From assembly GCF_004138485.1 (NCBI RefSeq), contig NZ_RYEV01000003.1, forward strand, positions 620,001-684,000: a stretch of DNA of 64,000 bases, written 5' to 3'. A model generated the notes under the pieces. The model saw only the letters and a list, made by a program, of their open reading frames with translations, made no database searches and was not told where the DNA came from. The translations under genes and the position numbers were made by a program. The DNA is from Peristeroidobacter soli. GTDB taxonomy: Bacteria; Pseudomonadota; Gammaproteobacteria; Steroidobacterales; Steroidobacteraceae. Below are positions 1,759 to 19,883 of the stretch, piece after piece (the stretch's first letter is position 1; every line of letters begins with the position of its first letter).

Positions 1759-2855
1759 GTGCTCGATTTGAATGGGGTCTGGTGGTGGGGAAGTTCGCGC
1801 CGCTCCACCGAGGGCATCAGCATGTGATCGACACGGCATTGAGCCAGTGTCGTCACGTCGTTCTGCTGTCGTATTCGAATCCAGAGATGCCTGGCTGCGA
1901 GCCGGCGCGACGCGAGGGCTGGCTCGCGGCGCTATATCCGCAAACGACGCGGCTGGTCGTGACGAATGAGCGACTGGCGATATGGTTCGGCGATCAGCAG
2001 CGGCAGATTCCGCCGAACAGCGCGCCCGACGACGTGCATCGCGCGTTCACAGCGGAGTTGATCGAGCGCGTCGTAGGTCGCCGACTTCGACGCGATGCTT
2101 GCGCGCGATCGATTCCATGGTCGCGAGGCCTGGTCGACGCGGTGTTTACGAGCGAGAGCTATGGGGAAGGTTTCGCCGCATATCTCGACCGGTATTTTCG
2201 TCGCGTCGATTCATCGGCGAGGCCCGTTCAGCACGTGCTCGTGGACGCGGCCCGAACTACCGTTCCAACCTCCGGCACAAGCATCCGCGCCAACGTCCAC
2301 GCCGAACGTCAGTGGCTGCACCCTTCCGTCTACGCGTCTTTCGTCGATCGCATCGTGTGCCTCGGCGGTGAATCAAGCGGCAAGAGCACGCTGACGGAAG
2401 CTTTGGCTCGCGCGTTTGGCACATGTCATGCGCCGGAGTTCGGCAGGGAATTATGGGTGGAGCGCGGCGGCACCCTGGAGTTCGACGACTTGCTGCTGAT
2501 CGGCCGAACTCAAGTGGCGCGAGAAGAGCGTCTTGCCGGGCAGTCGAATCGCTACTTGTTCTGTGACACCTCGCCGCTGACGACGCTGTTCTATTGTCTG
2601 GAGCAGTTCGGCAGGGCCGCGTCCGAGCTGGAGCGCCTCGCCGATCGCGAATACGCGCTGACCATTCTGTGCGCGCCGGACTTCGATTTCGTCCAGGACG
2701 GCACGCGGCGCGAGCCTGAGTTCCGTCTGAAGCAACACCAGTGGTATTTGCAAGAGCTGCAGCGACGCGGCGTGCCTTATATCGAGGTACGCGGCAGTGT
2801 CGAGGCGCGGATCGAGCAGGTGGACAGAGCGCTGGTTACTCGATCCGGCGCTTGA
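1755..2855 (+). CDS. nadR: NadR-like NMN adenylyltransferase / ribosylnicotinamide kinase
   Basis: This 366-residue bifunctional protein should phosphorylate nicotinamide riboside and adenylylate NMN to NAD. The N-terminal nucleotidyltransferase has GKFAPLHRGH (residues 12-21), the GxFxPxHxGH signature. The C-terminal kinase has a P-loop, GGESSGKST (204-212). The helix-turn-helix repressor domain found in enterobacterial NadR is absent, so this form should be purely enzymatic. I place the start at the GTG at 1755, which overlaps the pnuC stop and puts the catalytic motif near the N terminus as in the family. An upstream in-frame start would run inside pnuC. The 3' end overlaps the convergent RpiR gene by 20 bp. 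Confidence 0.88.
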   Translation: MSARFEWGLVVGKFAPLHRGHQHVIDTALSQCRHVVLLSYSNPEMPGCEPARREGWLAALYPQTTRLVVTNERLAIWFGDQQRQIPPNSAPDDVHRAFTAELIERVVGRRLRRDACARSIPWSRGLVDAVFTSESYGEGFAAYLDRYFRRVDSSARPVQHVLVDAARTTVPTSGTSIRANVHAERQWLHPSVYASFVDRIVCLGGESSGKSTLTEALARAFGTCHAPEFGRELWVERGGTLEFDDLLLIGRTQVAREERLAGQSNRYLFCDTSPLTTLFYCLEQFGRAASELERLADREYALTILCAPDFDFVQDGTRREPEFRLKQHQWYLQELQRRGVPYIEVRGSVEARIEQVDRALVTRSGA

Positions 2856-3729
2856 TCAGTTCCTCGCCGGAGGCCTGCAGCTTGGCCGCCGTCCGGCTCT
2901 TGTGCTTCAGGGCCAGGAAAACGAACAAGGCATCGATCAACGCCAGTTGCGTGACGCGCGAGGCCAGCGGCGCCTGGAAATATTTGATCTCGCTCGGCGT
3001 CGCGTACAAACAATAATCGCTGTGGGTGGTGATCGGCGACTTCATGGCGTTGGTCAGGCCGATGGTGGTCGCGCCCTTGGCCTTGGCGACCTCCAGGCAT
3101 TCCACGGTTTCGCGAGTCGTGCCCGACAACGAAATGCCGATCGCCACGTCGCCTTTCTCGAGCTGAGTGGCGGCGATCAGCTGGATATGTGAATCGAAGT
3201 GGGCCGATGCCTGCAGGCCGAGCAGCAGGAATTTGCAGTACGCCGTATGCGCGACGGGATAGGACAGGCCGATGGAGAACAGCTCCACGCGACGGCTCTT
3301 GTCGATGACCTGCGCAATCTTCTCGAACTGGGCCGGCGGATTGATCTGCAGCGTCTCGGTCAGGCTTTGCGCGTGAACTCCGAACACTTTCTCCAGCAGC
3401 GTGCCGCTTTCCTGAGTGTGGCCGGCCGGTAGCCCCGACTGCGCCAGGTCCCGGGCCAGCGCGATCTTGAACTCGGCAAAGCCGGTCAGACCGACGCGAC
3501 GACAGAACGCCACGATGGCGCCGACACTGGCGCCACAGTCGTCTTTCAACTGCGCGATCGAGGAGGTGATGACCCGTTCCGGGTCGGCGAGCACACAGTC
3601 CGCGATCAACCGGTCTGTCGGATTGAGGGACGCGAGGATCCCTTTGATATAGGTCAGCAACGGCCGCCGGCTGTCCGCCAGCGTGTCAGTCGATGCCTTT
3701 ATTGATGAGTTCTTGCGTCGCACACGCAC
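2836..3729 (-). CDS. RpiR/MurR-family transcriptional regulator
   Basis: This 297-residue protein has the RpiR layout: an N-terminal helix-turn-helix of about 75 residues (around 25-100, with ITSSIAQLKDDCGASVGAIV) followed by a SIS sugar-phosphate isomerase-like domain (about 140-265, with ELFSIGLSYPVAH and GISLSGTTRETVE). SIS domains in this family bind phosphosugars as effectors. The gene is divergent from the sugar operon starting at 3881, and the 151-bp gap between them carries two matching palindromes that are plausible binding sites. It probably controls that operon and itself. The start is a GTG at 3729, with other starts possible slightly inside. The effector is unknown. Confidence 0.9.
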   Translation of the reverse strand: MRVRRKNSSIKASTDTLADSRRPLLTYIKGILASLNPTDRLIADCVLADPERVITSSIAQLKDDCGASVGAIVAFCRRVGLTGFAEFKIALARDLAQSGLPAGHTQESGTLLEKVFGVHAQSLTETLQINPPAQFEKIAQVIDKSRRVELFSIGLSYPVAHTAYCKFLLLGLQASAHFDSHIQLIAATQLEKGDVAIGISLSGTTRETVECLEVAKAKGATTIGLTNAMKSPITTHSDYCLYATPSEIKYFQAPLASRVTQLALIDALFVFLALKHKSRTAAKLQASGEELIKRRIE

Positions 3730-3773
3730 ATTCTATGAGCAGCCTTGACAGCGCACCAGCGGCCGCGTAGTTT

Positions 3774-3786
3774 TGAACCAAGTTCA
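3774..3786. promoter_or_regulatory. Palindrome TGAAC-N3-GTTCA, site 1
   Basis: A perfect 13-bp inverted repeat with half sites TGAAC and GTTCA and spacer CAA, in the AT-rich divergent region between the RpiR gene and the sugar operon. An identical pair of half sites recurs 31 bp away (about three helical turns). That spacing and position suggest operator sites for the adjacent RpiR-family regulator. Assignment to this protein is inference. Confidence 0.6.
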
Positions 3787-3804
3787 TTAACACTACAACA
3801 TTTG

Positions 3805-3817
3805 TGAACATAGTTCA
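3805..3817. promoter_or_regulatory. Palindrome TGAAC-N3-GTTCA, site 2
   Basis: The second copy of the same 13-bp inverted repeat, with spacer ATA. A further lone half site, GTTCA, lies at 3824-3828. Together the sites cover the likely promoter zone of the operon whose first start codon is at 3881. Confidence 0.6.
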
Positions 3818-3880
3818 GTCGTAGTTCACAGGCTGTTTCCCAGGGGTTTCCGCTCTTTTCTCGAATCACGGGTTCATTTC

Positions 3881-4741
3881 ATGTCGCTCGAATCGATCAC
3901 TCGCCTGATGCAACACGCCCGCCACCACGACTACGCTCTGGGGTATTTCGAGAGTTGGAGCCTCGAGTCGGTCCAGGGCGTCATCGATGCGGCCGAGGCC
4001 ACCCGCTCGCCCATCATCATCGGTTTCAACGGCGAATGGCTGGCCGAGCGCCAGAACGCCTCGTCCCAGGAACTGCGTCTGTATGCCGCCCTGGGCAAGG
4101 CGGCGGCCGAGCAGGCCGGCGTGCCGGTGGGTTTCATTTTCAATGAATGTCCGAACGACGCCTGGGTCGAGCAGGCCATCGGCGCCGGTTTCAATCTGGT
4201 CATGCCCGCGGACCCGCAGGCGCCGCTGGAGGACTACACCCGCCGGGTGAAGCGGCTGACCGCGCTGGCCCACAGCCGCCAGGTGGCGGTGGAGGCCGAT
4301 TTCGAAGGCGACGATCTGGAGACCGCCGACTATGCCGACGGCGCCGCGAAGTTCGTGGCCGAGACCGGCGTCGATCTGCTGGCGGTCAGTGTCGGCAACG
4401 AAGAAATCAAATTGCAGGGCCGGGCGCCGCTCGACCTGAGCCGTCTGGAAGCGGTGGGGCGCAAGCTCGATGTGCCGCTGGTGTTACACGGCGGCACCGG
4501 CATCGAGGACGACTCGATCAAGGCCGCGATCCATCTGGGTGTCAGGAAGATCAACTATGGCACCTACATGAAGCAGAAGTATCTTCGGGTGATCCGCCAG
4601 GCGCTGGCCACGGCCGAGCCGAATCCGCATGCCCTGCTCGGCGACGGCAGCGACACCGATCTGATGGTGGTCGGCCGTCAGGTGGTGAAAGAGGCGGTGC
4701 TGGAACGTATCGAACTTCTCGGGTGCTGCGGCAGGGCGTGA
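3881..4741 (+). CDS. Class II aldolase-fold protein with altered metal ligands
   Basis: This 286-residue protein belongs by overall pattern to the class II fructose/tagatose-bisphosphate aldolase family (GatY/KbaY/FbaA). It has HHDYALGYF near the N terminus, GAGFNLVMPAD, an AKFVAETGVDLLAVSVG segment, LVLHGGTGI, and RKINYGTYMKQ. However, the usual catalytic/zinc pair DH in the LHxDH block reads N88-E89 (GFIFNEC), and the second zinc histidine (GTAHG in relatives) aligns with E175. Only the third histidine, H203, is kept. It may use another metal arrangement, another reaction, or no aldol chemistry. It is the first gene of the operon, 139 bp from the regulator-side palindromes, with pfkB 3 bp downstream. 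Confidence 0.8.
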   Translation: MSLESITRLMQHARHHDYALGYFESWSLESVQGVIDAAEATRSPIIIGFNGEWLAERQNASSQELRLYAALGKAAAEQAGVPVGFIFNECPNDAWVEQAIGAGFNLVMPADPQAPLEDYTRRVKRLTALAHSRQVAVEADFEGDDLETADYADGAAKFVAETGVDLLAVSVGNEEIKLQGRAPLDLSRLEAVGRKLDVPLVLHGGTGIEDDSIKAAIHLGVRKINYGTYMKQKYLRVIRQALATAEPNPHALLGDGSDTDLMVVGRQVVKEAVLERIELLGCCGRA

Positions 4742-4744
4742 TCT

Positions 4745-5698
4745 ATGCCTGACGTGGGCTGTGCAGGACTCCTGGTCGAAGACACTTTCTGCGGTCCGCT
4801 GGCGGCGCTGCCGCCGGCCGGGTCGTTGGTGGCGCTCGACGACATGCCGGTGCGTGCCGGCGGTTGTGCCGCCAATGTGGCCATCGACCTTGCCAAGCAG
4901 GGCATTGCCGTCGATCTCGCCGGCTGTGTCGGGCGCGACGGTTCCGCCGATGCGCTGCTGAAAACATTCGCAAAACACGATGTCGGTGCTTCGCGAGTCC
5001 TGCGGGTCGAGCAGTATCCGACCAGCCGCACCATCATTTTATTGATCGAAGGGCAGGACCGGCGCTACCTGCACGTGATCGGCGCCAACCGCGCGTTCAG
5101 TATCGATCAGATCTCCCATCAGTGGCTGTCGTCGCTGAAAGTCTTTTATCTCGGTGGTTTGTTTGCTCTGCCCGGCATCGAGTTCGCCAAGCTCGCAGCG
5201 CTGCTGGCGTTCTGTCGCGAAGCCAACGTCAAGACGGTGGTCGATGTGGTGGTGCCCGAGGGGCAGGGCGGCGTCACGGCGCTGAAGTCGTTGTTGCCCC
5301 TCATCGACGTGTTCCTGCCGAACGACGACGAAGCCCGTGCCTTCACGGGGCTCTCCGATCCGTTCGATCAAGTGCGTGCGCTCACCGAGGCCGGTGCCAA
5401 CACTGTGATCGTGACTCGTGGCGGGCTCGGCTCGGTCGCCGCACGAGGCGGCAAGATCTGGACCTGCGGTGCTTACAGCATGAACGTGGTCGATCCATCC
5501 GGCTCCGGTGATGCATTTACGTCGGGCGTCATTCGCAGCCTGCTGCAGAACTGGAACTTGCCACAGACCCTTCGTTACGCGAGCGCCGTCGGCGCGTCGG
5601 CTACCCGAGCCGCGGGCACGACCGATTCCGTTTTCTCCGCCGCGGAAGCCGAAGCCTTTGCAATCGACCATCCGCTGACTGTCTCCGAGGTTCGTTGA
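4745..5698 (+). CDS. PfkB-family carbohydrate kinase
   Basis: This 317-residue ribokinase-fold kinase is expected to phosphorylate a sugar or sugar phosphate with ATP. It shows the N-terminal substrate-binding GGCAANVAIDLAKQG block (about residues 39-53), an NDDEA motif, and the C-terminal signature DPSGSGDAFTSG with D256 as the likely catalytic base. The common GAGD anion hole is GSGD here. It lies 3 bp after the aldolase-like gene and is followed at once by the lipoyl-domain gene. The substrate cannot be read from sequence. The nearby isomerase-like and epimerase-like genes suggest a ketose or its phosphate. Confidence 0.88.
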   Translation: MPDVGCAGLLVEDTFCGPLAALPPAGSLVALDDMPVRAGGCAANVAIDLAKQGIAVDLAGCVGRDGSADALLKTFAKHDVGASRVLRVEQYPTSRTIILLIEGQDRRYLHVIGANRAFSIDQISHQWLSSLKVFYLGGLFALPGIEFAKLAALLAFCREANVKTVVDVVVPEGQGGVTALKSLLPLIDVFLPNDDEARAFTGLSDPFDQVRALTEAGANTVIVTRGGLGSVAARGGKIWTCGAYSMNVVDPSGSGDAFTSGVIRSLLQNWNLPQTLRYASAVGASATRAAGTTDSVFSAAEAEAFAIDHPLTVSEVR

Positions 5699-5700
5699 GT

Positions 5701-5943
5701 ATGGAAGTGAATATGAAGATGCCGGATCTCGCCACCAATGAAGGCGTGGAGCTCGGCATCACCCGTTGGCTCGCCAATGTCGGCGACGCCGTGAAGCGCG
5801 GTCAGGCGCTGCTCGAGATCGAGACCGATAAAGCGGTCCAGGAAGTGGAGTGCATCGCCAACGGCACGCTCCAGACCATTCATGTGCAGTCGGGGGAGAA
5901 GGTTCCCGTCGGCACCGTCATCGCGACCATCAAGGTGAGCTGA
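5701..5943 (+). CDS. Free-standing lipoyl/biotinyl-attachment domain protein
   Basis: This 80-residue protein is essentially a single biotinyl_lipoyl domain. It has VNMKMPDLA at the N terminus, GDAVKRGQALLEIETDKA with the modifiable K44 in the ETDKA turn typical of lipoyl domains, and GEKVPVGTVIATI at the end. In 2-oxoacid dehydrogenase complexes such domains are fused to the E2 acyltransferase. Here there is no catalytic E2 domain. Its stop overlaps the ATG of the fused E1 gene, so it is probably the acyl carrier for that E1. ATG 5701 was chosen because the open frame upstream begins only with a TTG inside the kinase stop. ATG 5713 is an alternative. Confidence 0.88.
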   Translation: MEVNMKMPDLATNEGVELGITRWLANVGDAVKRGQALLEIETDKAVQEVECIANGTLQTIHVQSGEKVPVGTVIATIKVS

Positions 5944-7955
5944 TGTCAGGCCACGACCGCAAGTTCCTGCTGGGGCTGTATGAACGGATGCTGTTGATCC
6001 GTGAGTTCGAGGATACGGTCAAGTTCCTGTTCCTCGAAGGCACCATGCCCGGGACCATTCATCAATGTCAGGGGCAGGAGGCGACCGCTGTCGGCGTGTG
6101 CGCGGCGCTCGGTGCCGATGACTGGATTACGTCGACGTTTCGGGGACACGGCCATGCGCTGGCGAAAGGGCTGACCCCGCAGGAAATGATGGACGAGTTG
6201 TTCGGTGCCGAGACCGGCTGCTGCAAGGGTCGCGGCGGCTCGATGCACATGGGCAACATGAGCAAGGGGATGGTCCCGGGAATCGCCATCGTCGCAGGAG
6301 GCATCCCGCTGGCTGCCGGCATGGCGCTGTCATTCAAGATGGAAAACAAGCCACACGTAGTGGCGTCCTTCTTTGGTGACGGCGCCATTGCCGAGGGCGC
6401 CTTCCATGAAGGCGTCAACATGGCGGCCATCTGGGATCTGCCGCTCATCCTGGTCTGTGAAAACAATCTTTACGGCGCGTCGACGCATGTCGATCTGGTG
6501 ATGAAGAACTCGCGCATCTCGGAGCGCGCGAAGTCCTACGGATTCCGTGGTGAGACGGTCGACGGCAACGATGTGCTCGCAGTCTATGAAGCCTCGCAAA
6601 GAGCGGTCGCCGATTGCCGTGCTGGCAAAGGCCCGGTGTTGCTCGAACTGCTGACCTATCGTCGCACCGGCCACTCGCGTCGCGACCCGTGTCATTACCA
6701 ACCTAAAGATGAGCGCGAGGCGTGGGCCCAGCGCGATCCCATCGAGCGATTCCGTGAGCAGGCTCATATCACCGCGGAAGAGCATGAGCTCATCAACACG
6801 CGCATTCAAAAGATGCTCGCCGACTGTGTGGAGCGAGCCAAGGTCGCGCCTCACCCGAGCGTGAGCGGGCTGGCCGAGTACGTTTTTGTCGAGGCGCCGC
6901 CGCGATCCCCTGCTCTCAATGTACAGAACCCCGTCGTGAGTGCAGCCGGGTCAACGCGGCGTCTCGGCATCGCCGAGGCGTTGCGCGAAGGGATCGCCGA
7001 AGAAATGGCGGCGGATCCACGCGTGTTCTGCATCGGTGAAGATATTGGGGTGCCGGGAGGTTGGGGCGGGGCGTTCACGGTGACGCTGGGCCTGGAGAAG
7101 AAGTATTCCGAGCGGATGATCAATACGCCGATCGCGGAACTCGGCTTCTTCGGCCTGGCCACCGGGGCGGCGATGATGGGCATGCGCCCCATCGCCGACG
7201 TGCAGTATGGCGATTTCCTGTTCCTGGCCAGCGATCAGATCATCAATAACGCGGCCAAGCTTCGTTACATGTCGGGCGGCACCATCAGCGTTCCGCTGGT
7301 GATGCGCGCACCGGTCGGCGCGACCGGTCGCGGCTCGCAGCACGCTCAAAACATGGAACGTTACTTCACCGGTGTTCCAGGCTTGAAAGTCGTTGCGCCA
7401 TCGAATGCGTACGACGCCAAGGGTTTGCTCAAGGCCGCGCTCCGCGATGGCAATCCGGTGCTGATGTTCGAGCACAAGTTGTTGTACGGCTCGAAGGGCG
7501 CGCGTGCAGAGGGTGGCGCCGTGGACGCGTCGAGTGACGTTCCGGCGGAAGATTACATCGTGCCGCTCGGCAAGGCCGCGGTTCGACGCGAAGGCAAGAA
7601 CGTCACCGTGCTCGCCTGGCTCTTGATGGTCCATTACGCGATGCAGACGGCCGACGAGCTCGATGCGGAAGTCATCGACGTGCGCAGTCTGAATCCCATC
7701 GATTGGGACACGATTGGCGCGTCCGTGCGCAAGACCGGTCGCGCCGTGATCGTGGAGGAAGGTCCGATCACGGGCGGTGTCGGTGCCGAGATCGCCGCCG
7801 GCATCGCCGAACGCTGGCCGTCGGTGCGCGTGACTCGCGTCGCCTCGCCAGATGTCCCTGTTCCTTTCACGCCCGTGCTCGAGAACGCGTATCGACCCGA
7901 TGCGAATCGGATCTCCGCGGGCGTGCGCCAGATTTTGGAGGAGAGTCATGGCTGA
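5943..7955 (+). CDS. Fused alpha-beta E1 component, thiamine-diphosphate dehydrogenase
   Basis: This 670-residue protein joins the alpha and beta subunits of a pyruvate/acetoin/branched-chain-type E1. The alpha half (about 1-325) has the ThDP motif GDGAIAEG (145-152) ending in N175 and the [11 protein letters not shown] loop. The beta half (about 337-670) starts at [13 protein letters not shown] and contains [19 protein letters not shown] and [16 protein letters not shown]. Such enzymes decarboxylate a 2-oxo acid or cleave acetoin-like compounds and transfer the acyl group to a lipoyl domain. The preceding gene supplies a lipoyl domain, but no E2 or E3 gene is present in the window. The substrate is unknown. 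The ATG at 5943 overlaps the previous TGA. Confidence 0.88.
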
Positions 7956-8841
7956 TACAGACGGTCTGAAAGAAGCGAAGAACTTTCATGAAGACGTGCC
8001 GATGCGCACGCCCGGGTTCTTCCTGCGCGGCGCGGGCTCGCTGGATTGGGGAATGAAGAATCGCCTGGCGCGCATCTTCAACCCCGAGACGGCGCGCACG
8101 GTGATGCTCGCCATCGATCATGGCTATTTCCAGGGACCGACGACCGGTCTGGAGCGCGTCGATCTGAACATCGTCCCGCTCATGCCCATGGCCGATGCGT
8201 TGATGCTCACGCGCGGCATTCTGCGATCCACGGTGCCGCCGGCCATCAACAAGCCCATCGTCATGCGTTGTAGCGGCGGTCCCAGCATTCTCAAGGAACT
8301 GTCGAACGAAGAGCTGGCGGTCGATATCGAAGACGCCATTCGCATGAATGTGTCGGCGCTGACCACGCAGGTGTTCATCGGCGGTCAGTTCGAGACGCAC
8401 TCGGTGCACAACATGACGCGACTGGTCGACATGGGCCTGCGCTATAGCATCCCGACGATGGCGGTCACGGCGGTGGGCAAGGAGCTGACGCGTGATGCTC
8501 AGTATCTGCGCCTGGCTTGCCGCATCTGTGCCGAGCTCGGCGCGCAGATCGTCAAGACTTACTACTGCGCCGAAGGCTTCGAAACCGTCACGGCATCGTG
8601 CCCGGTGCCCATCGTCATGGCCGGTGGCAAGAAGCTGCCGGAACTCGAGGCGTTGACGATGGCATACAACGCCATCCAGCGCGGCGCCGCCGGTGTCGAC
8701 ATGGGTCGAAACATTTTCCAGAGCGACGCGCCGCGCGCCATGATGCAGGCGATTCACAAAGTCGTGCACAACGGCCTCAAGCCCAAGGAAGCGCATGAGC
8801 TGTTCCTGAGCTTGAGAAGCGAAGAGTCGAAGGGACGTTGA
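7948..8841 (+). CDS. LsrF-like class I aldolase / thiolase
   Basis: This 297-residue DeoC/FbaB-type TIM barrel closely follows LsrF, which transfers the acetyl group of 3-hydroxy-5-phosphonooxypentane-2,4-dione to CoA during AI-2 breakdown. Key blocks are [16 protein letters not shown] with H58, and IVKTYYC with the Schiff-base lysine K203, followed by [15 protein letters not shown]. These fall at the positions I recall for the E. coli enzyme. No other lsr gene is nearby, so the substrate is probably an analogous phosphorylated diketone or ketose of this operon. The ATG at 7948 has a strong GGAGGAG Shine-Dalgarno and overlaps the E1 3' end by 8 bp. Confidence 0.85.
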
Positions 8842-8842
8842 G

Positions 8843-9544
8843 ATGGCGCGCTCCCCTCTCGTTGATCGATTGCGCGCCTCCGCGCCTCAGATCAGCGTGG
8901 GGGTGCTCACCGCCGATTGGCTGACGCTGGGTTCGCAGCTGAAATATCTGGAATGCGCGGGCGTCGATCTGTTGCATTTCGACGTGATGGATGGCGTCTT
9001 CTGTCCTCAGTTGACCTTGGGTGCGCCGGTCGTCGCCGGCATCAAGACGAATCTGCTCAAGGACGTGCATCTGATGATCGAGGACCCGCTCAGCAAGCTG
9101 GATTCGTTCGTCGCCGCCGGCGCGGACATCGTCACTGTGCACGCGGAATCCACTCGTCACATCCATCGCGTGCTCCAGGCGCTGGGCAAGATGACCAATG
9201 CCAACGATCCAAATCGGGGCATCGTGCGGGGCATCGCTTTGAATCCCGGCACCCCGCTGGAAGTGCTCGAGCCGCTGGCGGGCGAATTCGAAATGGTGCT
9301 GGTGCTGGCGGTGAATCCCGGGTGGGGCGGGCAGAAGTTCATCGCATCGACCTGCGATCGCGTCAAACGGCTGCGGGAAAGTCTGGGCGATACGGCTTTG
9401 ATTTGTGTGGATGGCGGCGTGACTCGCGACAACATCGTAAATATTGCCCGCATGGGCGCGGACATCATCGTCACCGGCAGCGCGGTCTTCGACGGCAAAG
9501 CGCCGTTGGAAAATGCCAAGTACATGATGGGCGCGCTGCGATGA
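8843..9544 (+). CDS. Ribulose-phosphate 3-epimerase-like protein
   Basis: This 233-residue TIM barrel belongs to the Rpe/AlsE family, which epimerises ketopentose or ketohexose phosphates at C3. The metal and catalytic blocks are intact: LLHFDVMDGVF, KDVHLMIEDP, NPGWGGQKF and ICVDGGVTRDN. The N-terminal block reads ISVGVLTADW where Rpe usually has IAPSILSADF, and PQLT replaces PNIT, so it looks like a paralog rather than the housekeeping enzyme. It follows the LsrF-like gene by one base and overlaps the next ATG (ATGA). Confidence 0.85.
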   Translation: MARSPLVDRLRASAPQISVGVLTADWLTLGSQLKYLECAGVDLLHFDVMDGVFCPQLTLGAPVVAGIKTNLLKDVHLMIEDPLSKLDSFVAAGADIVTVHAESTRHIHRVLQALGKMTNANDPNRGIVRGIALNPGTPLEVLEPLAGEFEMVLVLAVNPGWGGQKFIASTCDRVKRLRESLGDTALICVDGGVTRDNIVNIARMGADIIVTGSAVFDGKAPLENAKYMMGALR

Positions 9545-11505
9545 AGAGTCTCTGGAACGAACCGGACGCGGCCCGCTTTCAAGGGCTGCTGGGCCAGCGC
9601 GTTTATACCTCGCGTCTGCTCGGTCGCGATCCGTCGCTGGTGCTCCACGGCGGTGGTAATACCTCGGTCAAACTGGTCGAGTCGAACGTCTTTGGCGAGT
9701 CGGAGGACGTGCTCTACGTCAAAGGTCGCGGCGCAGATCTTGCGACGATCGATGCCGCTGGATTCTCACCCTGCCGCCTGCGCCGGTTGCTACGGCTGGT
9801 GAGTCTCGGCGAGCTTTCCGACGAGCACATGGAGAGTGAGCTGAAGTTGTCACTGACTCGTGCCTCGGCACCGGCACCCTCAGTCGAAACCCTGTTACAC
9901 GCCCTGCTGCCTCAGAAGTTCGTCGATCACACGCACTCCGACGCGCTGATAGCTGTCATGAACTCGCGCAATGGCTTCGAGCGATTGCAGGAGATCTATG
10001 GCTCGCAGGTCGTGGTCATCCCCTATGCGATGCCGGGCTTCAAGCTGGTGCGTCTGTGTCGCGAGATTCTTTCCAAAGAAGCGACGCGCGACACCATCGG
10101 CGTTGTACTCATGCATCACGGGATCTTCACCTTCGGTGAAACCGCGAAACTGTCCTATGAGCGCATGATCGATCTGGTGTCGCAGGCGGAGCGCTATCTC
10201 GAGACCCACGATGCCGGTCGGGCCGAGTGGATTACTCGAACGCCGAAGCCTGTGTCGCGCGTGGAGATCGCTTCGCTGCGCCGGGAAGTCAGCTGCGCGG
10301 CCGGTACGCCCATGGTGATGACGGTTCGCACCGACTCGCAGGCCTTGGGCTTCGCCCAGCATCCCGATGTTGTCGAGTTGTCGCAACGAGGGGGCGTCAC
10401 GCCGGATCATGTGATTCGCACGAAGCGCGTGCCGATGATTGGTCGCGATGTCGCGGCCTACGCGGCTGCGTATCAAGAGTATGTGCGTGCTCACGTGGCT
10501 GGGCGCGCGCTTGCGGTGGTCGATCCGGCGCCGCGCGTGATTCTCGATCCCGATCTGGGCATGGCAGTGCTGGGGCGGAGCGCCGAGGATGCGAGCATTG
10601 CCGAAGACATCTATCGGCACACAATCGACATCATCATGAGCGCCGAAAAGCTGGGCGGCTGGAAGGCGCTGCCGGCTCGCGATTTTTTCGATGTCGAATT
10701 CTGGGATCTGGAGCGCACCAAGCTGGCCAAGCCGAATCCCGAGGCGACATTTCTAGGTGAAGTCGCGCTGGTCACCGGCGCGGCGTCGGGTATCGGCAAA
10801 GCTTGCGTCGATTCGTTGCTGGCGCGAGGCGCGGCCGTCGTTGCCCTGGATGTTTCGCCCGCGGTCAAACAGCTGTACGACCGCAAGAGCTTCCTGGGGA
10901 TCGAATGCGATCTCACCAGTGAGGAACAGATTGGCGCCGCGCTGGATCAGGCAGTGCGCGTGTTTGGTTCGGTCGACATGCTGGTGCTCAATGCCGGCAT
11001 CTTCCCCAAGAGCTCGCCGATCGCCGCGATGGCTACGGATGTCTGGCGCCGGACCATGAGTATTAATCTGGATGCGAACCTGGTCCTGATGCGGGAGTGT
11101 CATCCCCTGCTCAAGCTCGCGCCGCGCGGCGGCCGGGTGGTGATCGTCGGCTCCAAGAATGTCGCCGCCCCCGGCCCCGGCGCCGCTGCTTATTCGGCTT
11201 CGAAGTCAGCCATGCAGCAGTTGGCGAGAGTCGCGGCGCTGGAGTGGGGCAGTGATGGCATTCGCGTGAACTGTGTTCATCCGAACGCGGTGTTTGATAC
11301 GGCGATCTGGACGCCGGAAGTGCTCGCGGCTCGCGCAGCGTCCTATAAGTTGAGTGTTCAGGAATATAAAACCAACAATATCCTCAAGGTCGAGGTGACG
11401 AGTAAGGACGTAGCAGAGCTGGCCGCCGAGCTGTGCGGACCCCGGTTCTCCAGAACCACGGGCGCGCAGATTCCGGTGGACGGTGGTAACGAGCGCGTCA
11501 TCTGA
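9541..11505 (+). CDS. Bifunctional class II (adducin-type) aldolase / short-chain dehydrogenase
   Basis: This 654-residue fusion is of the RhaD/RhaE-like type. The N-terminal aldolase domain (about 1-390) has LHGGGNTSVK, the zinc ligands HTH (H130, H132) and HHG (192-194). The C-terminal SDR domain has the NAD-binding VTGAASGIG (411-419), NAG, and the YSASK active site (Y551, K555). In rhamnose-type pathways such proteins oxidise a polyol phosphate or aldehyde and cleave a phosphoketose. The gene starts at an ATG overlapping the epimerase stop. The exact substrate is not readable. It supplies both a redox and a C-C cleavage step to the operon. Confidence 0.87.
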   Translation: MKSLWNEPDAARFQGLLGQRVYTSRLLGRDPSLVLHGGGNTSVKLVESNVFGESEDVLYVKGRGADLATIDAAGFSPCRLRRLLRLVSLGELSDEHMESELKLSLTRASAPAPSVETLLHALLPQKFVDHTHSDALIAVMNSRNGFERLQEIYGSQVVVIPYAMPGFKLVRLCREILSKEATRDTIGVVLMHHGIFTFGETAKLSYERMIDLVSQAERYLETHDAGRAEWITRTPKPVSRVEIASLRREVSCAAGTPMVMTVRTDSQALGFAQHPDVVELSQRGGVTPDHVIRTKRVPMIGRDVAAYAAAYQEYVRAHVAGRALAVVDPAPRVILDPDLGMAVLGRSAEDASIAEDIYRHTIDIIMSAEKLGGWKALPARDFFDVEFWDLERTKLAKPNPEATFLGEVALVTGAASGIGKACVDSLLARGAAVVALDVSPAVKQLYDRKSFLGIECDLTSEEQIGAALDQAVRVFGSVDMLVLNAGIFPKSSPIAAMATDVWRRTMSINLDANLVLMRECHPLLKLAPRGGRVVIVGSKNVAAPGPGAAAYSASKSAMQQLARVAALEWGSDGIRVNCVHPNAVFDTAIWTPEVLAARAASYKLSVQEYKTNNILKVEVTSKDVAELAAELCGPRFSRTTGAQIPVDGGNERVI

Positions 11506-11541
11506 CGACGAAGCGCCGGCCGGTGAGGCCGAGGGGGAATG

Positions 11542-12213
11542 ATGAAACGGTCCGAGATCAACGCGCTCATCGAGGGCGCGATTACGCTGTTGCACGAACA
11601 TCAGATTCGCCTGCCGCCGTTCGCCTACTGGAGCCCGGCCGATTGGGCCGCCAAGGGCGAGGAGTGCGATGAGATCCGCCAGTGCAAACTCGGCTGGGAT
11701 ATCACCGATTTCGGCTCGGGGGATTTCGACAAGGTCGGCCTGGTCGTTTTCACCGTGCGCAACGGCCATCATCGGCGCGTGCCTTATAACAAGAAGCCGT
11801 ATGCCGAAAAGCTGCTGGTGATTCGCGAGAATCAGCACACGCCGATGCACCATCACGTTCTCAAGTCCGAGGACATCATCTGCAAGTCGGGCGGCAATCT
11901 GCTGATCCGTCTGTTCAATCGCGGCCCGGACGGCAAGCTGGCGGACTCGGATGTCGAGGTGTCCCTGGATGGCGTGCGGCACCGGGTCAAGGCCGGCCAC
12001 ACCTTCCGCTTGAAGCCGGGCGACTCCATTACCTTGACGCCGTATCTGTATCACGAATTCTGGGCCGAAGAAGGCACCGGTACGTCCATTGTCGGCGAGG
12101 TGTCGTCGGTCAATGATGACGATATGGACAATGCCTTCTACGCCAAGATCGGGCGCTTTCCACAGATCGAAGAAGACGTGCCGGTGACGCACAAGCTGTG
12201 CACTGAGTACTAG
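11542..12213 (+). CDS. D-lyxose ketol-isomerase-like cupin
   Basis: This 223-residue cupin-fold protein resembles D-lyxose/D-mannose isomerases, which interconvert an aldose and its 2-ketose using a divalent metal. The likely ligands are H103, H105 and E110 (in HTPMHHHVLKSED) and H171 (YHEFWAEE), at the positions I recall for the E. coli enzyme of this family. The N-terminal MKRSEINALI helix is also typical. Two ATGs stand in tandem (11539 and 11542). The second has better spacing from the GAGGGGG Shine-Dalgarno. In this operon it would convert the imported sugar to a ketose for the PfkB kinase. Confidence 0.82.
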   Translation: MKRSEINALIEGAITLLHEHQIRLPPFAYWSPADWAAKGEECDEIRQCKLGWDITDFGSGDFDKVGLVVFTVRNGHHRRVPYNKKPYAEKLLVIRENQHTPMHHHVLKSEDIICKSGGNLLIRLFNRGPDGKLADSDVEVSLDGVRHRVKAGHTFRLKPGDSITLTPYLYHEFWAEEGTGTSIVGEVSSVNDDDMDNAFYAKIGRFPQIEEDVPVTHKLCTEY

Positions 12214-12243
12214 GGTTCACAGGCCCTCACGTTCGAGGTCCCC

Positions 12244-13422
12244 ATGACCTTCGAAGCCACCGTCAAGATTCAGGGGCAGGAGTCTTTCCTGCTGGGCACG
12301 CGGCACGTCGAGCTGGCGTTGACGCGGACCGGCGGCATGCTGGGGCCGGTGATTTTCTTTCCCAGGGAAGATGAGCCCATCCGGCCCTACGCCGTCGCGC
12401 CCTGGGCGGAAGAAACATTGCCGGACGATGTTCCTCCCATGCTGCGCGCCCTGCGCGGCGACTGGTTCTGTTCGGCTTTCGGTGAAAATGGCGAGCCGTA
12501 TCGAGGTCGGCGTCTGCCGCCGCATGGGGAGACGGCGAATCTCGAGTGGCGTGAGATCCGGAACGGCGAGACGAGCGAGGGTTGCTGGCTGCGTCTCGGT
12601 GTCGACATGCCTCTGCAAGGGGGCACGTGCCACGCGACGACCGCGCTGCTCGCCAATCAATCCATCATCTATCAACGCCACGATCTTGCGGGGTTGAGCG
12701 GGCCGATCAATCCCGGGCATCACGCGACATTGGCGTTTCCAACGACCAAGGGCGGCGCGCGGCTGTCGTTCAGTTCACTGGTCCACGCTCGAACGTACGT
12801 CGAACCGACGGCTCGGCCGGAAGATCGCGGCTACTCGTGGCTGAAGACCGACGCTGAGATTGCCGATCTGCACGCGGCGCCATGCATCGATGGGTCGAGC
12901 ACCGACCTGTGCCGATATCCCGCGCGGCGTGGCTTCGAAGACCTCGCCATTCTATGTGCCGATCCGACTCAGGAATTCGCGTGGTCGGCCGTGACCTTCC
13001 CCGAGCAGCGCTATGTCTGGTTCGCGATGCGCGATCCGAAGCAGCTGGCGTCGACGTTGCTGTGGTTCTCCAATGGCGGGCGGCATTTTCCGCCTTGGAA
13101 CGGCCGGCACGTCAACGTCATGGGGATCGAAGACATCACGGCGTACTTTCACGCCGGTCTCGCGGCTTCCGCGCGAGAGAATCCGTTGAGCGCGCGAGGC
13201 ATACCGACGTGCCTGCGGCCGGACGCACAGGGCCGGCTGTCGATCTTCTATCTCCAGGGCGTCGCGCGCATCCCGGCGGATTTCGATTGCGTCGCCGATA
13301 TCGAGGGTCACTGGAGAGATAACAGTATCGTGCTACGCGCGGAATCGGGGGCGGCGGTGGCGGTTCAATGCCATCTCGACTTTCTGCGCACGGGAACGTT
13401 ACCGGGGCTGGAAATACAATGA
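12244..13422 (+). CDS. Uncharacterised protein, possibly galactose-mutarotase-like
   Basis: I do not recognise this 392-residue protein with certainty. It has no signal peptide or membrane segment, is rich in short beta-type stretches, Gly, Pro and aromatics, and has a distinctive block SNGGRHFPPWNGRHVNVMGI (about residues 279-298) followed by ED. Such an arrangement recalls sugar-binding beta-sandwich proteins of the aldose-epimerase superfamily, and an epimerase or hydrolase-like role on the sugar would fit. It lies between the isomerase gene and the sugar porter, and its stop overlaps the porter ATG (ATGA), so it belongs to the operon. Confidence 0.6.
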   Translation: MTFEATVKIQGQESFLLGTRHVELALTRTGGMLGPVIFFPREDEPIRPYAVAPWAEETLPDDVPPMLRALRGDWFCSAFGENGEPYRGRRLPPHGETANLEWREIRNGETSEGCWLRLGVDMPLQGGTCHATTALLANQSIIYQRHDLAGLSGPINPGHHATLAFPTTKGGARLSFSSLVHARTYVEPTARPEDRGYSWLKTDAEIADLHAAPCIDGSSTDLCRYPARRGFEDLAILCADPTQEFAWSAVTFPEQRYVWFAMRDPKQLASTLLWFSNGGRHFPPWNGRHVNVMGIEDITAYFHAGLAASARENPLSARGIPTCLRPDAQGRLSIFYLQGVARIPADFDCVADIEGHWRDNSIVLRAESGAAVAVQCHLDFLRTGTLPGLEIQ

Positions 13423-14798
13423 CACATACGCTCAACGGCACTTTGGTCCGGACCGTCTTCGTGGCCGCCCTCGGCGGCTCCTTGCTCGGTTTCGATACGG
13501 CCGTCATCGCCGGATCGACGCACGGACTGACTCAGATGTTCAATCTGTCACCGAGCGAGCTCGGTTTCACTGTATCCGCGGCGCTCTGGGGCACGGTGCT
13601 CGGTGCGATGGCGGCGGGCTCGATGGGGCGGGTGCTCGGTGGTCGCACGAGTCTGTTGATTCTCGCGTCCTGTTATCTCATTTCCGCACTGGGCTGCGCC
13701 TTCTCGTCGTCCTGGACATGGCTGCTGATCTTCCGTTTCGTCGGCGGCCTCGGCATGGGCGGATCGTCCGTGATCGCGCCGGTGTACATCGCCGAGATCG
13801 CGCCGGCCGCGTGGCGAGGGCGACTGGTCGGTGCGTTTCAGATCAATATCATCGGCGGCATTCTGCTGGCGTACCTGTCCAACTATGTGATCGGGATGTT
13901 TGCATTGGGCGAGCTGGTCGAGTGGCGCTGGCAGTTGGGAATCGCGGCGGCGCCGGCGGCGTTGTTTCTGGTGATGCTGGTCGGCATTCCGCAGAGCCCG
14001 CGCTGGCTGGTCGCGCAAGCTCGCCTGGAGGAGGCGGAGCAGGTGCTTCGCAAGCTGGGCTCCGAGAAGCCACTCGGCGAGCTGGCCAGTATTCGCGCGT
14101 CACTCGAAGGGGATGCCGGGCCGAGTTCCGATCGACTGTTTCAATGGCGCTATCGTCGCCCCATCCTGCTGGCGCTGGTGCTGGCGATGTTCAATCAGCT
14201 GATCGGCATCAACGCCGTGCTCTATTACTTGAACGACATCTTTGCGATGGCGGGCTTCGATCGCACCTCACAGAACGCGCAGGCGGTTGCGGTCGGCGCG
14301 ACCATGCTGATCTCCACCCTGATCGCGCTCAGCCTCATCGATAAGTTCGGCCGGCGTACGCTGTTGCTGGTTGGCTCCGTGGGCCTGGCCATTTGTCTGG
14401 CCGCGATCGCGACGATCTTCCACATCCAGCAGTATCAAAGCACGTTGCTGATGTTCCTGGTCGGCTACGTCGCGTTCTTCTCGTTCTCGCAGGGTGCGGT
14501 GATCTGGGTGTACTTGAGCGAGATCTTTCCCGATCGGGTGCGCGCTCAGGGCCAGAGTCTGGGCAGCTCGACCCACTGGGTGATGAACGCCATCGTGTCC
14601 GCGGCTTTCCCGGTGATCGCCACTCAGTCGCAGTCGGGTCCGTTCTTCATGTTCCTGGTCATGGTGATTCTGCAGTTCCTGGTGGTGCTGATGTTCTTTC
14701 CCGAGACCAGCGGCGTCAGGCTCGAGGACATTCAGCGGCGACTGGGTACCACCGAGGGCTCGGACACCCCCGTCGTAGTGGCGCGCGAAGCTCAATAG
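13419..14798 (+). CDS. Sugar:H+ symporter, MFS sugar porter family
   Basis: This 459-residue integral membrane protein with about twelve hydrophobic helices should import the substrate of the operon. Sugar-porter signatures are GGSLLGFDTAVIAG in helix 1, the GRRTLLLVG loop, FNQLIGINAVLYYLND in helix 7, WVYLSEIFPDRVRAQG, and PETSGVRLEDIQ at the C terminus, equivalent to PETKG. The ATG at 13419 overlaps the previous stop. A longer frame upstream would lie inside the preceding gene. It ends the operon, and a GC hairpin follows at 14815. The specificity is unknown. It differs from the xylose-locus porter at 22728. Confidence 0.9.
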   Translation: MTHTLNGTLVRTVFVAALGGSLLGFDTAVIAGSTHGLTQMFNLSPSELGFTVSAALWGTVLGAMAAGSMGRVLGGRTSLLILASCYLISALGCAFSSSWTWLLIFRFVGGLGMGGSSVIAPVYIAEIAPAAWRGRLVGAFQINIIGGILLAYLSNYVIGMFALGELVEWRWQLGIAAAPAALFLVMLVGIPQSPRWLVAQARLEEAEQVLRKLGSEKPLGELASIRASLEGDAGPSSDRLFQWRYRRPILLALVLAMFNQLIGINAVLYYLNDIFAMAGFDRTSQNAQAVAVGATMLISTLIALSLIDKFGRRTLLLVGSVGLAICLAAIATIFHIQQYQSTLLMFLVGYVAFFSFSQGAVIWVYLSEIFPDRVRAQGQSLGSSTHWVMNAIVSAAFPVIATQSQSGPFFMFLVMVILQFLVVLMFFPETSGVRLEDIQRRLGTTEGSDTPVVVAREAQ

Positions 14799-18110: not shown

Positions 18111-19883
18111 TCAGTGATTGTGCCGAGGCGTCTTCTTCGCGACCTGCCGATATTTCAGCGCCATTTCCATCACGCCGCCCTGGTCGAGCTGACTGACGGT
18201 GGAGCGATACAGTTCCTGCCACGGCGTCGCGCTGTCGGGCACCGCCGGAATGCCGTCCTGCTTGCGGCGTTCGATCTCTTCGTCGGAGACCAGCATGTCG
18301 CAACGAGCCTGGTTCAAGTCGATGCGAATGATGTCGCCGGTTCGCAGCCACGCGAGACCGCCGCCGGCCGCGCTCTCGGGCGAAGCATTCAGAATCGAGG
18401 GACTGTCCGAGGTGCCGGACTGACGGCCATCGCCGATGGTCGGCAAGCTGGCGATGCCTCGCTTCAACAGAGCATCCGGCGGCTGCATGTTCACGACTTC
18501 GGCGGAGCCGGGCCAGCCCAGCGGGCCGGCGCCGCGAATCACCAGCACGCAGCGCTCATCGATGTTCAGCGCCGGATCGTTGATGCGCGCTCTATAGTCG
18601 TCCGAACCATCGAATACGACAGCGCGACCTTCGAACACGTTGTCGTGTCCGGCCTCGCCCAGATAGCGACGGCGGAAATCCTCAGTGATCACGCTCGCCT
18701 TGAGAATCGCGAAGTCGAACAGGTTGCCGCTCAACACGACAAAGCCCGCGCGCTCGCGCAGCGGCTTGTCGTAGGTCGCGATCATTTCGCGGTCTTTGCT
18801 CGCGCGGCCTTTGATGTTCTCTCTCAGCGTGCGACCGGTAACAGTCATCGCGTCCGCATGCAGCTTGCCCGCTTCGATCAGCTCGTGCAGAACGGCGGGC
18901 ACGCCACCGGCGCGATGAAAGCGCTCGCCCAGGTACTTACCCGCGGGCTGCATGTTGAGCAGCAGCGGGATGTCATGTCCGTACCTGGTCCAGTCCTGAG
19001 CATGCAACTCGAGACCGGCGTGACGAGCCATCGCAGTCAGATGCGGTTGCGCGTTGGTCGAGCCGCCGAGCGCCGCGATCGCAGTGATTGCGTTGAGGAA
19101 CGACTCGCGCGTGAGAATCTTCGACGGACGCAGATCTTCGAACGCCATTTCCACGGCGCGGCGACCTGTCTCATACGCCATCTGCCCACGCTCACGATAG
19201 GGTGCGGGAATGGCGGAACAGCCGGGCAACGAAAGCCCGAGCGTTTCGGCGACGGCGTTCATCGTCGAAGCCGTGCCCATGCTGTTGCAGTGGCCGGGCG
19301 AGGGGGCGGACGCGGCGGCGGCATCCAGAAATTCCTGTTCGGTAATCTGACCGGCGGCGAGGCGACGGCGACTCTTCCAGATCACCGTGCCCGAGCCGAC
19401 CAGTTCATCTTCGAACCAGCCATCGAGCATCGGGCCGCCGGAGAGCACGATCGCTGGAATATCGACGGTCGAAGCGGCCATCACCGCGGCGGGCGTCGTC
19501 TTGTCACAGCCAGTCGTGAGCACCACGGCGTCGATCGGGTAGCCATGCAGGATTTCGACGAGGCCGAGGTAGGCAAGATTGCGATCGAGCGCCGCCGTCG
19601 GGCGACGGCAATTCTCGAAGATCGGATGGGTCGGGAATTCCATGGGAATGCCGCCGGCATCGCGAATGCCTTCCTTCACGCGCGTCGCGAGATCGACGTG
19701 AATACGATTGCAGGGAGTGAGATCGCTGCCGCTCTGGGCGATGCCGATGATGGGCTTGCCGCTCATCAGCTCCTTGGGCGTCAGCCCGTAGTTCATGAAG
19801 CGCTCCAGATAGAGCGCCATCATGTCGATGTGATCGCGGGCGTCGAACCAGTCCTGGGAACGAAAGCGGCGCTCAGCCGTCAT
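18111..19883 (-). CDS. xylD: D-xylonate dehydratase (IlvD/EDD family)
   Basis: This 590-residue Fe-S dehydratase of the IlvD/EDD superfamily has PCNRIH, TTGCDKTTPA and PGHCNSMGTASTMN, which carry the cluster cysteines. The family removes water from aldonates, and pentonate dehydratases of this length include XylD of the Caulobacter Weimberg pathway. The operon context (XylB-, XylC- and XylX-like genes, xylan genes nearby) favours D-xylonate to 2-keto-3-deoxy-D-xylonate. L-arabinonate is the main alternative. I place the start at the ATG at 19883, whose first bases overlap the lactonase stop by 11 bp. A longer frame upstream runs through the lactonase gene. Confidence 0.85.
   Translation of the reverse strand: MTAERRFRSQDWFDARDHIDMMALYLERFMNYGLTPKELMSGKPIIGIAQSGSDLTPCNRIHVDLATRVKEGIRDAGGIPMEFPTHPIFENCRRPTAALDRNLAYLGLVEILHGYPIDAVVLTTGCDKTTPAAVMAASTVDIPAIVLSGGPMLDGWFEDELVGSGTVIWKSRRRLAAGQITEQEFLDAAAASAPSPGHCNSMGTASTMNAVAETLGLSLPGCSAIPAPYRERGQMAYETGRRAVEMAFEDLRPSKILTRESFLNAITAIAALGGSTNAQPHLTAMARHAGLELHAQDWTRYGHDIPLLLNMQPAGKYLGERFHRAGGVPAVLHELIEAGKLHADAMTVTGRTLRENIKGRASKDREMIATYDKPLRERAGFVVLSGNLFDFAILKASVITEDFRRRYLGEAGHDNVFEGRAVVFDGSDDYRARINDPALNIDERCVLVIRGAGPLGWPGSAEVVNMQPPDALLKRGIASLPTIGDGRQSGTSDSPSILNASPESAAGGGLAWLRTGDIIRIDLNQARCDMLVSDEEIERRKQDGIPAVPDSATPWQELYRSTVSQLDQGGVMEMALKYRQVAKKTPRHNH

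Follow-up and report, generated by a model that had tools for sequence, protein, structure and literature searches.

What would a bacterium do with ten nearly contiguous genes that combine a sugar porter, an isomerase and a sugar kinase with a thiolase, an E1-type enzyme and a lipoyl carrier? Such a run lies in the stretch of Peristeroidobacter soli DNA considered here (64,000 nucleotides of contig NZ_RYEV01000003.1, positions 620,001–684,000; hereafter the window). The initial annotation read it as a candidate undescribed sugar pathway under RpiR control, in which an imported sugar would be isomerised, phosphorylated, epimerised or oxidised, and finally split, with coenzyme A (CoA) or lipoate carrying the acyl product and a C3 phosphate as the other fragment. 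The reading we favour, tentatively and at somewhat less than an even chance, is an RpiR-controlled operon for the uptake and oxidative breakdown of an aldose, where a short-chain dehydrogenase/reductase (SDR) would oxidise C4 and LsrF would thiolyse the product to dihydroxyacetone phosphate (DHAP) and an acyl-CoA. Gene content, conservation, kept and lost residues, linkage and the clade in which LsrF falls are observed here, whereas the reactions and their order are inferred.

A Conserved Operon Beside an RpiR-Type Regulator

Ten plus-strand genes (3881–14798) follow a divergent regulator gene. Families were assigned via Pfam and NCBIfam profiles, and by these profiles and their coordinates all modules named in the initial annotation are present:

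2836–3729, minus strand: RpiR-type regulator (Pfam HTH_6, 57.9 bits; SIS, 71.8 bits)
3745–3773, plus strand: sigma-70-like promoter, TTGACA-17-TAGTTT (single match in the window; none seen in any of 100 shuffles)
3774–3786, strandless: palindrome 1, TGAAC-N3-GTTCA, candidate RpiR operator (exact copy, immediately 3' of the promoter)
3805–3817, strandless: palindrome 2, TGAAC-N3-GTTCA, candidate RpiR operator (exact copy)
3881–4741, plus strand: class II fructose-bisphosphate aldolase-like protein with N88, E89 and E175, here called FbaII-NE (F_bP_aldolase, 161.4 bits)
4745–5698, plus strand: PfkB sugar kinase, putatively a ketose kinase (PfkB, 159.9 bits)
5695–5943, plus strand: stand-alone lipoyl carrier of 82 amino acids with ETDKA motif (Biotin_lipoyl, 68.3 bits)
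5943–7955, plus strand: thiamine diphosphate (ThDP) E1 alpha/beta fusion (E1_dh, Transket_pyr, Transketolase_C)
7948–8841, plus strand: LsrF-type thiolase (NF006081, 500.3 bits, cut-off 297; 393.1 bits to LsrF 3glc)
8843–9544, plus strand: Rpe-family 3-epimerase paralog (Ribul_P_3_epim, 181.3 bits; TIGR01163, 197.2 bits, slightly below the cut-off of 212.6)
9541–11505, plus strand: class II aldolase/adducin domain-SDR fusion of RhaEW type (NF006196, 1016 bits, cut-off 831)
11539–12213, plus strand: D-lyxose/D-mannose isomerase-type cupin (Lyx_isomer, 315.6 bits, cut-off 20.8; 215.9 bits to D-lyxose isomerase 3kmh)
12244–13422, plus strand: beta-rich protein without family match (best profile match 2hta, E 0.077, not significant)
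13419–14798, plus strand: major facilitator superfamily (MFS) sugar porter (Sugar_tr, 339.4 bits; TIGR00879, 327.4 bits, cut-off 237.8)

Five of the nine junctions overlap (by 4, 1, 8, 4, and 4 bp) and the other four are gaps of 3, 1, 33, and 30 bp, so that the ten genes are likely read as one transcript, as the initial annotation had concluded from the overlaps. All ten genes and the RpiR gene occur in identical order in three other Steroidobacteraceae genomes (L083, L084, L085). The operon is therefore more than a chance assembly of genes. In a fourth Steroidobacteraceae locus, L086, the contig ends within lsrF. The RpiR gene is present in all four at 89–96% identity, and the TTGACA element is conserved in 5/5 aligned intergenic regions, while the −10 element TAGTTT is lost in L085 and L086. 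Both promoter palindromes have counterparts in L083–L086 with at most one arm mismatch and an identical 31-bp spacing, and are candidate RpiR operators; since 21 of 100 shuffles give three matches to the motif when one mismatch is allowed, the argument rests on position and conserved spacing. A third exact copy (11267–11279), within the SDR half of the fusion, lacks a counterpart there in L083–L086 and is treated as chance. Gene order, promoter palindromes and a core that recurs in another phylum support a co-regulated catabolic unit with an unassigned substrate, in line with the literature: no paper assigning this gene set to a known sugar was found in open-licence PMC text, seen mostly as listings or the beginnings of abstracts, which does not prove the set undescribed.

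Recurrence of a Core of the Gene Set in Other Phyla

Co-occurrence of these genes elsewhere, which the initial annotation had called for, is found as the full set in L083–L085 and as a core in metagenome-assembled genomes (MAGs) of Opitutae. A scan with residues 1–190 of FbaII-NE, covering one genome per species (84,980 species by the tool's own figure), returned 61 pattern-matching stretches, nine of which encode a relative: the four Steroidobacteraceae loci, whose proteins are 82–92% identical across their full length, and five MAGs at 57–60%, four titled Opitutae and one Verrucomicrobia bacterium. With the family profile, a 398-genome sample of the window's phylum yields a single genome passing 1e-60, that of the window itself, and 3 of 288 Opitutae-phylum genomes pass 1e-45, one of them the query's own genome. 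FbaII-NE is a rare family.

A kernel of FbaII-NE, lipoyl carrier and E1 recurs in the Opitutae MAGs with PfkB, cupin and aldolase-SDR fusion. The run begins with a DeoR regulator, FbaII-NE (57–59%), PfkB (56–57%; adjoining FbaII-NE in four loci), a protein of ~680–690 amino acids and the lipoyl carrier (45–51%); it continues with a 405-amino-acid protein, a DUF4450 protein, a GH38-type protein, E1 alpha (69–75%) and E1 beta (72–77%), which are separate genes as opposed to the fusion in the window, and ends with a small cupin (~27%), the aldolase-SDR fusion (63–64%) and a large protein that looks GH38-like by eye. The ~680–690-amino-acid protein (copies in L087 and L090) and the 405-amino-acid protein (copy in L087) have no Pfam match, and PhyH-type proteins are interspersed in some loci. 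The entire run lies on one contig in L087+L092; in L088+L093, the fusion was not found next to the cupin. FbaII-NE and E1 sit on separate contigs in genomes G803, G804, and G805. Genome G1089 holds DeoR, FbaII-NE, lipoyl carrier and E1; the DUF4450, GH38-type and unmatched proteins have relatives there too, with no PfkB, cupin or fusion nearby. A 6.9-kb contig of the Verrucomicrobiota genome G1025 (L105) carries DeoR, FbaII-NE (52%), lipoyl carrier (51%), E1 alpha (63%) and E1 beta (71%) together with a lyxose isomerase of full length (61%), LsrF (71%) and a single SDR (37%); PfkB is absent from it. On an Arthrobacter plasmid, an FbaII-like gene truncated by the start of the record (29%) accompanies an E1 fusion (48%), a lipoyl carrier (50%), two FGGY kinases, a sugar-binding regulator, an ABC transporter and an SDR.

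LsrF and Its Genomic Partners

LsrF is carried at 1e-60 by 52 of the 398 genomes of the window's phylum, the window's own included. Of 387 Opitutae-phylum genomes, 58 have LsrF. A match to the aldolase-SDR protein lies beside it in 23 of 29 other loci of the window's phylum, each viewed with at most 1.5 kb of flank. Larger stretches were fetched for 43 loci picked from the best LsrF-similarity matches, and not at random. Here, 27 loci have a RhaEW-type SDR, either fused or stand-alone, on the strand of lsrF and no more than 4 kb from it (14 of the 20 loci L038–L057, L079, L110, L105, the nine loci L141–L149, and L153; a 25% SDR match in L155 was excluded). Among L038–L057, four loci have none of the neighbours sought, L055 is an LSR operon for autoinducer-2 (AI-2), and L057 has Rpe only; the L152 locus is cut by a contig end. 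In L150 and L151, a zinc alcohol dehydrogenase replaces the SDR, in the order LsrF, alcohol dehydrogenase, small protein (glyoxalase-like in L151); the L151 enzyme is closest to threonine 3-dehydrogenase, under the cut-off. In a tree of 56 LsrF rows, 54 of them different, the window's LsrF falls within a 99/97 clade of 14 rows, all 14 SDR-linked by our own labels and apart from the LSR rows.

Kinases found beside LsrF and the SDR are rhamnulokinase-like FGGY proteins (L143, L148) and DhaK/DhaL (L153), families which phosphorylate the C1 hydroxyl of ketoses. Across the eight loci L153–L160 (56–62% identity), six have both DhaK and DhaL, L156 has a DhaL match and L159 neither. Locus L143 unites an aldolase-family gene, LsrF, Rpe, an SDR and a kinase nearest to rhamnulokinase (346.9 bits, cut-off 527.95). 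BLAST (1e-4) gave no match between the window's aldolase half and the free-standing aldolase-family proteins encoded by L143, L147, and L148, so that L143 resembles an unfused version of the window set by likeness of function, not by proven descent. Rpe adjoins LsrF in L143, L147, and L149 at 56–60%. The H-D-H-D residues, which we take to be metal ligands, are conserved in the window's paralog as well as in 6/6 sequences comprising Rpe neighbours of LsrF (L143, L147, L149, L039, L057) and the Salmonella epimerase. In a ketulose phosphate, Rpe acts on the carbon that separates the ketone from the carbon after it.

Further arrangements were seen around LsrF. It lies beside DhaK and DhaL in L154, L155, L157, L158, L160, L163, and L164 (Opitutae-phylum and Bacteroidota records), and the first five of these additionally hold a protein of 103–144 amino acids related to L155:12088–12405; this LsrF setting, too, has no assigned function. 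The Sagittula plasmid L162 carries LsrF with an FGGY kinase, a GlpD-like protein and a class II aldolase-family protein, and Shinella L079 has a similar set with an aldolase-SDR fusion. In L042, L049, L050, L052, and L054, which belong to the window's phylum, LsrF and the aldolase-SDR protein are followed by proteins of 1239–1336 amino acids whose beginnings resemble one another around HP(K/R)A.

A Proposed Route From Aldose to DHAP

In the proposed route, the MFS porter would import an aldose, the cupin would isomerise it to a ketose and PfkB would add a phosphate to C1 of the ketose. Oxidation of the C4 hydroxyl by the SDR half of the fusion would then give a 2,4-dioxo-sugar 1-phosphate, CH2OP-CO-CHOH-CO-R, whose C3 configuration the Rpe paralog may set, and LsrF would use CoA to cleave C3–C4, releasing DHAP and R-CO-CoA. 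The aldolase half may be an alternative, hydrolytic cleaver or a 4-epimerase. It is read as an alternative to LsrF because the Opitutae have the fusion without LsrF, whereas SDR and LsrF occur in L141 and L142 with no aldolase-domain match on their strand within 4 kb (as in L105 and L144, so far as the contigs reach), and the window has both.

By its name, the LsrF substrate 3-hydroxy-2,4-pentanedione 5-phosphate (P-HPD) is CH2OP-CO-CHOH-CO-CH3, which on structural grounds is the product to be expected from C4 oxidation of a 5-deoxyketose 1-phosphate. Any ketose 1-phosphate oxidised at C4 has the same frame. This shared 2,4-dioxo frame would explain why an SDR or alcohol dehydrogenase is a frequent neighbour of LsrF, why kinases of ketose-1-kinase families lie near it and how Rpe fits. 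As described in PMC6410053, LsrF converts P-HPD and CoA to DHAP and acetyl-CoA, and PMC7828210 gives identical products.

The isomerase family suggests, as a first guess, a sugar of D-lyxo or D-manno configuration. The cupin matches D-lyxose isomerase 3kmh over its whole length, and the HxH, E and H residues, presumably the metal site, are conserved in the alignment and shared with that enzyme. Since it scores 269.1 against a cut-off of 350 for the NCBIfam D-lyxose isomerase equivalog, its substrate may differ from D-lyxose. The 12244–13422 protein has no Pfam or NCBIfam match and is perhaps, on faint resemblance, aldose-1-epimerase-like; its relatives (~31%) lie in mixed loci without a clear role, mostly on alphaproteobacterial plasmids. 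The L085 copy (77%) was missed by open reading frame calling and found by tblastn. A single-sequence AlphaFold model of the protein reached a mean predicted local distance difference test score of 33 and was not used.

The working model of the initial annotation agrees with the comparative evidence and can be sharpened, in that oxidation probably precedes cleavage and LsrF is likely the CoA-dependent cleaving enzyme.

A Possible Second Acyl-Forming Module

E1, lipoyl carrier and FbaII-NE may form a second acyl-forming module, which would take this sugar too, or else an aldehyde fragment of it, as substrate and place the acyl group onto lipoate. The metal-altered class II aldolase of the initial annotation is borne out: Asn88–Glu89 stands in place of the Asp-His pair in 11/11 family sequences (window, L083, L085, L086, L087, L088, L090, L091, L101, L102, L080; two further loci without a match were left out). 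At the second zinc His, the four Steroidobacteraceae rows have Glu175 while the remaining seven retain His, and the zinc ligand H203 is conserved in 11/11; the positions of the zinc ligands and the catalytic Asp are those we presume for class II aldolases. FbaII-NE therefore shares its family and one His ligand (H203) with the fructose- and tagatose-bisphosphate aldolases but has Asn for the catalytic Asp and Glu for a ligand His. It scores under the cut-off of every NCBIfam aldolase listed, and its best plasmid-borne relatives are at ~31%. The catalytic Asp of class II aldolases acts on the C4 hydroxyl. Because a C4-ketone substrate would not need it, FbaII-NE may handle a 4-keto sugar phosphate, and the loss of the Asp is counted in favour of an oxidised substrate.

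The E1 has both alpha and beta domains and is 69–77% identical to its separate Opitutae counterparts. In 13/13 kernel E1s, the Arthrobacter protein included, the loop GHS is immediately followed by Arg246, as against 0/20 related E1 proteins of the same order (E in 13, V in 4, M in 2, I in 1), a hint that the substrate may be anionic. Pyruvate and acetoin dehydrogenase complexes likewise combine E1 alpha/beta with a lipoyl domain; the operon differs in that its lipoyl carrier is free-standing, that no E2 acyltransferase catalytic domain is found in the 82-amino-acid protein or elsewhere in the operon, and that the operon has no E3. Among plasmid relatives of E1, E2 adjoins E1 in 3 of 4 regions viewed. 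On a Thermus thermophilus plasmid (L108:7992–10179), genes for E1 alpha and E1 beta are accompanied by one for a small lipoyl protein and adjoin a TRAP transporter; E2 is lacking, and no FbaII-like gene is among the listed genes of this region.

Alternative Explanations

The chief rival, which we regard as unlikely, is that the aldolase acts first, as published for RhaEW: a ketose 1-phosphate would yield DHAP and an aldehyde, to be oxidised by the SDR or by E1 and lipoyl carrier, with LsrF a side reaction. Here, the fusion of the window has the RhaEW architecture of aldolase plus SDR, with the presumed catalytic residues counted as present, and this fusion is what the operon shares with the RhaEW L-rhamnose pathway, while it lacks rhamnose isomerase and FGGY kinase and adds LsrF and the E1 parts. 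A plain rhamnose RhaEW locus was rejected on the RhaEW family score (TIGR02632, 442.2 bits, below the cut-off of 567.75). According to PMC3870299, RhaEW acts on a ketose 1-phosphate, gives DHAP and is assigned as rhamnulose-1-phosphate aldolase plus lactaldehyde dehydrogenase. Its section 18 reports that neither DHAP nor lactate forms without NAD+, which was taken there to mean that the aldolase activity requires the dehydrogenase domain. This absence of DHAP argues against cleavage first and supports oxidation first, which in our view would be the simpler account of the NAD+ dependence. Loci in which a single SDR adjoins LsrF and no aldolase domain is matched on that strand over 4 kb (L141 and L142; likewise L105 and L144, where contig ends are near) point the same way, whereas the conserved catalytic residues of the aldolase half favour the published order. 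Ordinary use of D-lyxose or D-mannose, with isomerase and kinase feeding the pentose-phosphate pathway or glycolysis and the other genes handling glycolaldehyde or side products, would suit a cupin clearly of the D-lyxose isomerase family and an Rpe that fits pentose-phosphate chemistry; such a route requires none of LsrF, FbaII-NE, E1/lipoyl carrier and fusion and leaves them without a role, although parts of this set recur together, and we consider it improbable. Scarcely better placed is the view of E1 and lipoyl carrier as a conventional 2-oxo acid or acetoin-type dehydrogenase with borrowed E2 and E3 that acts on a late-pathway 2-oxo acid. E1 family membership and the additional E1 genes in the kernel genomes searched speak for it, but the lipoyl protein has only 82 amino acids and no E2 catalytic domain, E1 and lipoyl carrier are repeatedly paired with FbaII-NE in three phyla, and no decarboxylating step is foreseen for the sugar. 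Finally, a variant operon for uptake and breakdown of AI-2 (4,5-dihydroxy-2,3-pentanedione) would account for an LsrF above the NF006081 cut-off. The LSR operon has in common the LsrF thiolase yielding DHAP and acyl-CoA, and in Salmonella also an Rpe-family epimerase, but it works with an FGGY AI-2 kinase, LsrG, the LSR transporter and LsrR where the window has isomerase, PfkB, SDR and E1. Unlike in L161 and L166, no LsrK, LsrG, LsrACDB or LsrR family is found among the regulator and the ten operon genes, to which the search for them was confined, and the LSR LsrFs form a clade separate from that of the window. On these missing parts and the LsrF clade the AI-2 reading was rejected as highly improbable.

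Several observations weigh against the oxidation-first, LsrF-dependent route that we favour. The aldolase half retains E116, H130, H132, and H193, presumably its catalytic residues, in 10/10 rows and may be a plain aldolase. In the SDR, whose catalytic residues are assigned on our assumption, Tyr and Lys are conserved in 15/15 rows, whereas the Ser column is Thr in 9/15 and Ser in 6/15. LsrF is not universal to the gene set, as five kernel-bearing Opitutae/Verrucomicrobia genomes lack it (two without a match at 1e-10, three with matches of only 31–33%). In G1089 and G1025, PfkB matches reach only 29–30% genome-wide and the fusion has no match at 1e-30, an empty answer that in this search proves nothing. 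Many comparison genomes are MAGs or drafts in which genes may be missed (the L105 and L144 contigs end 1.1 and 2.1 kb from lsrF), and the 43 LsrF loci, selected by similarity, include close kin such as two from Shinella. Furthermore, the C1 specificity of PfkB is assumed, the need for both LsrF and E1/lipoyl carrier is unexplained, and there is no candidate for removing the acyl group from the lipoyl carrier without E2.

Flanking Regions

Downstream, at 18111–39544, the window encodes GH67, two GH3 proteins, a SASA-type esterase, an IlvD/EDD dehydratase, a FAH-type hydrolase, an SDR, an enolase-superfamily protein, a second sugar porter, a LacI-type regulator and a TonB receptor. This locus, whose LacI-type regulator is its own, probably serves the use of glucuronoxylan and the non-phosphorylative use of sugar acids, and was treated as separate. 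Upstream (2–2855) lie adenylate-forming-ligase-like, PnuC-like and NadR-like proteins, named by reading the sequence; the NadR-like gene converges on the RpiR gene, and the two overlap at their 3' ends. The genome of the window measures 9.37 Mb, as opposed to 3.5 Mb for two genomes labelled as the same genus.

Implications for LsrF and RhaEW

That FbaII-NE recurs in three phyla in a trio with ThDP E1 and a free lipoyl carrier points to an acyl-forming reaction that is as yet uncharacterised. A general oxidation-first route, in which the SDR would make the C4 ketone and interchangeable cleavers would carry out a retro-Claisen step, namely the aldolase with water (to an acid), LsrF with CoA (to an acyl-CoA) or the Asp-less aldolase fold with ThDP E1 and free lipoyl carrier (to an acyl-lipoate), is a bolder extension that we think doubtful. 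If true, the assignment of RhaEW as an aldolase joined to an aldehyde dehydrogenase would be a misreading, and the LsrF-dependent breakdown of AI-2 would belong to sugar catabolism as one of its branches. If the reading of the window operon is right, LsrF would be mainly a sugar-catabolism thiolase and not a quorum-signal enzyme, the oxidised fragment of the sugar would be conserved as acyl-CoA, and the accepted order of steps in RhaEW-dependent rhamnose breakdown would need checking.

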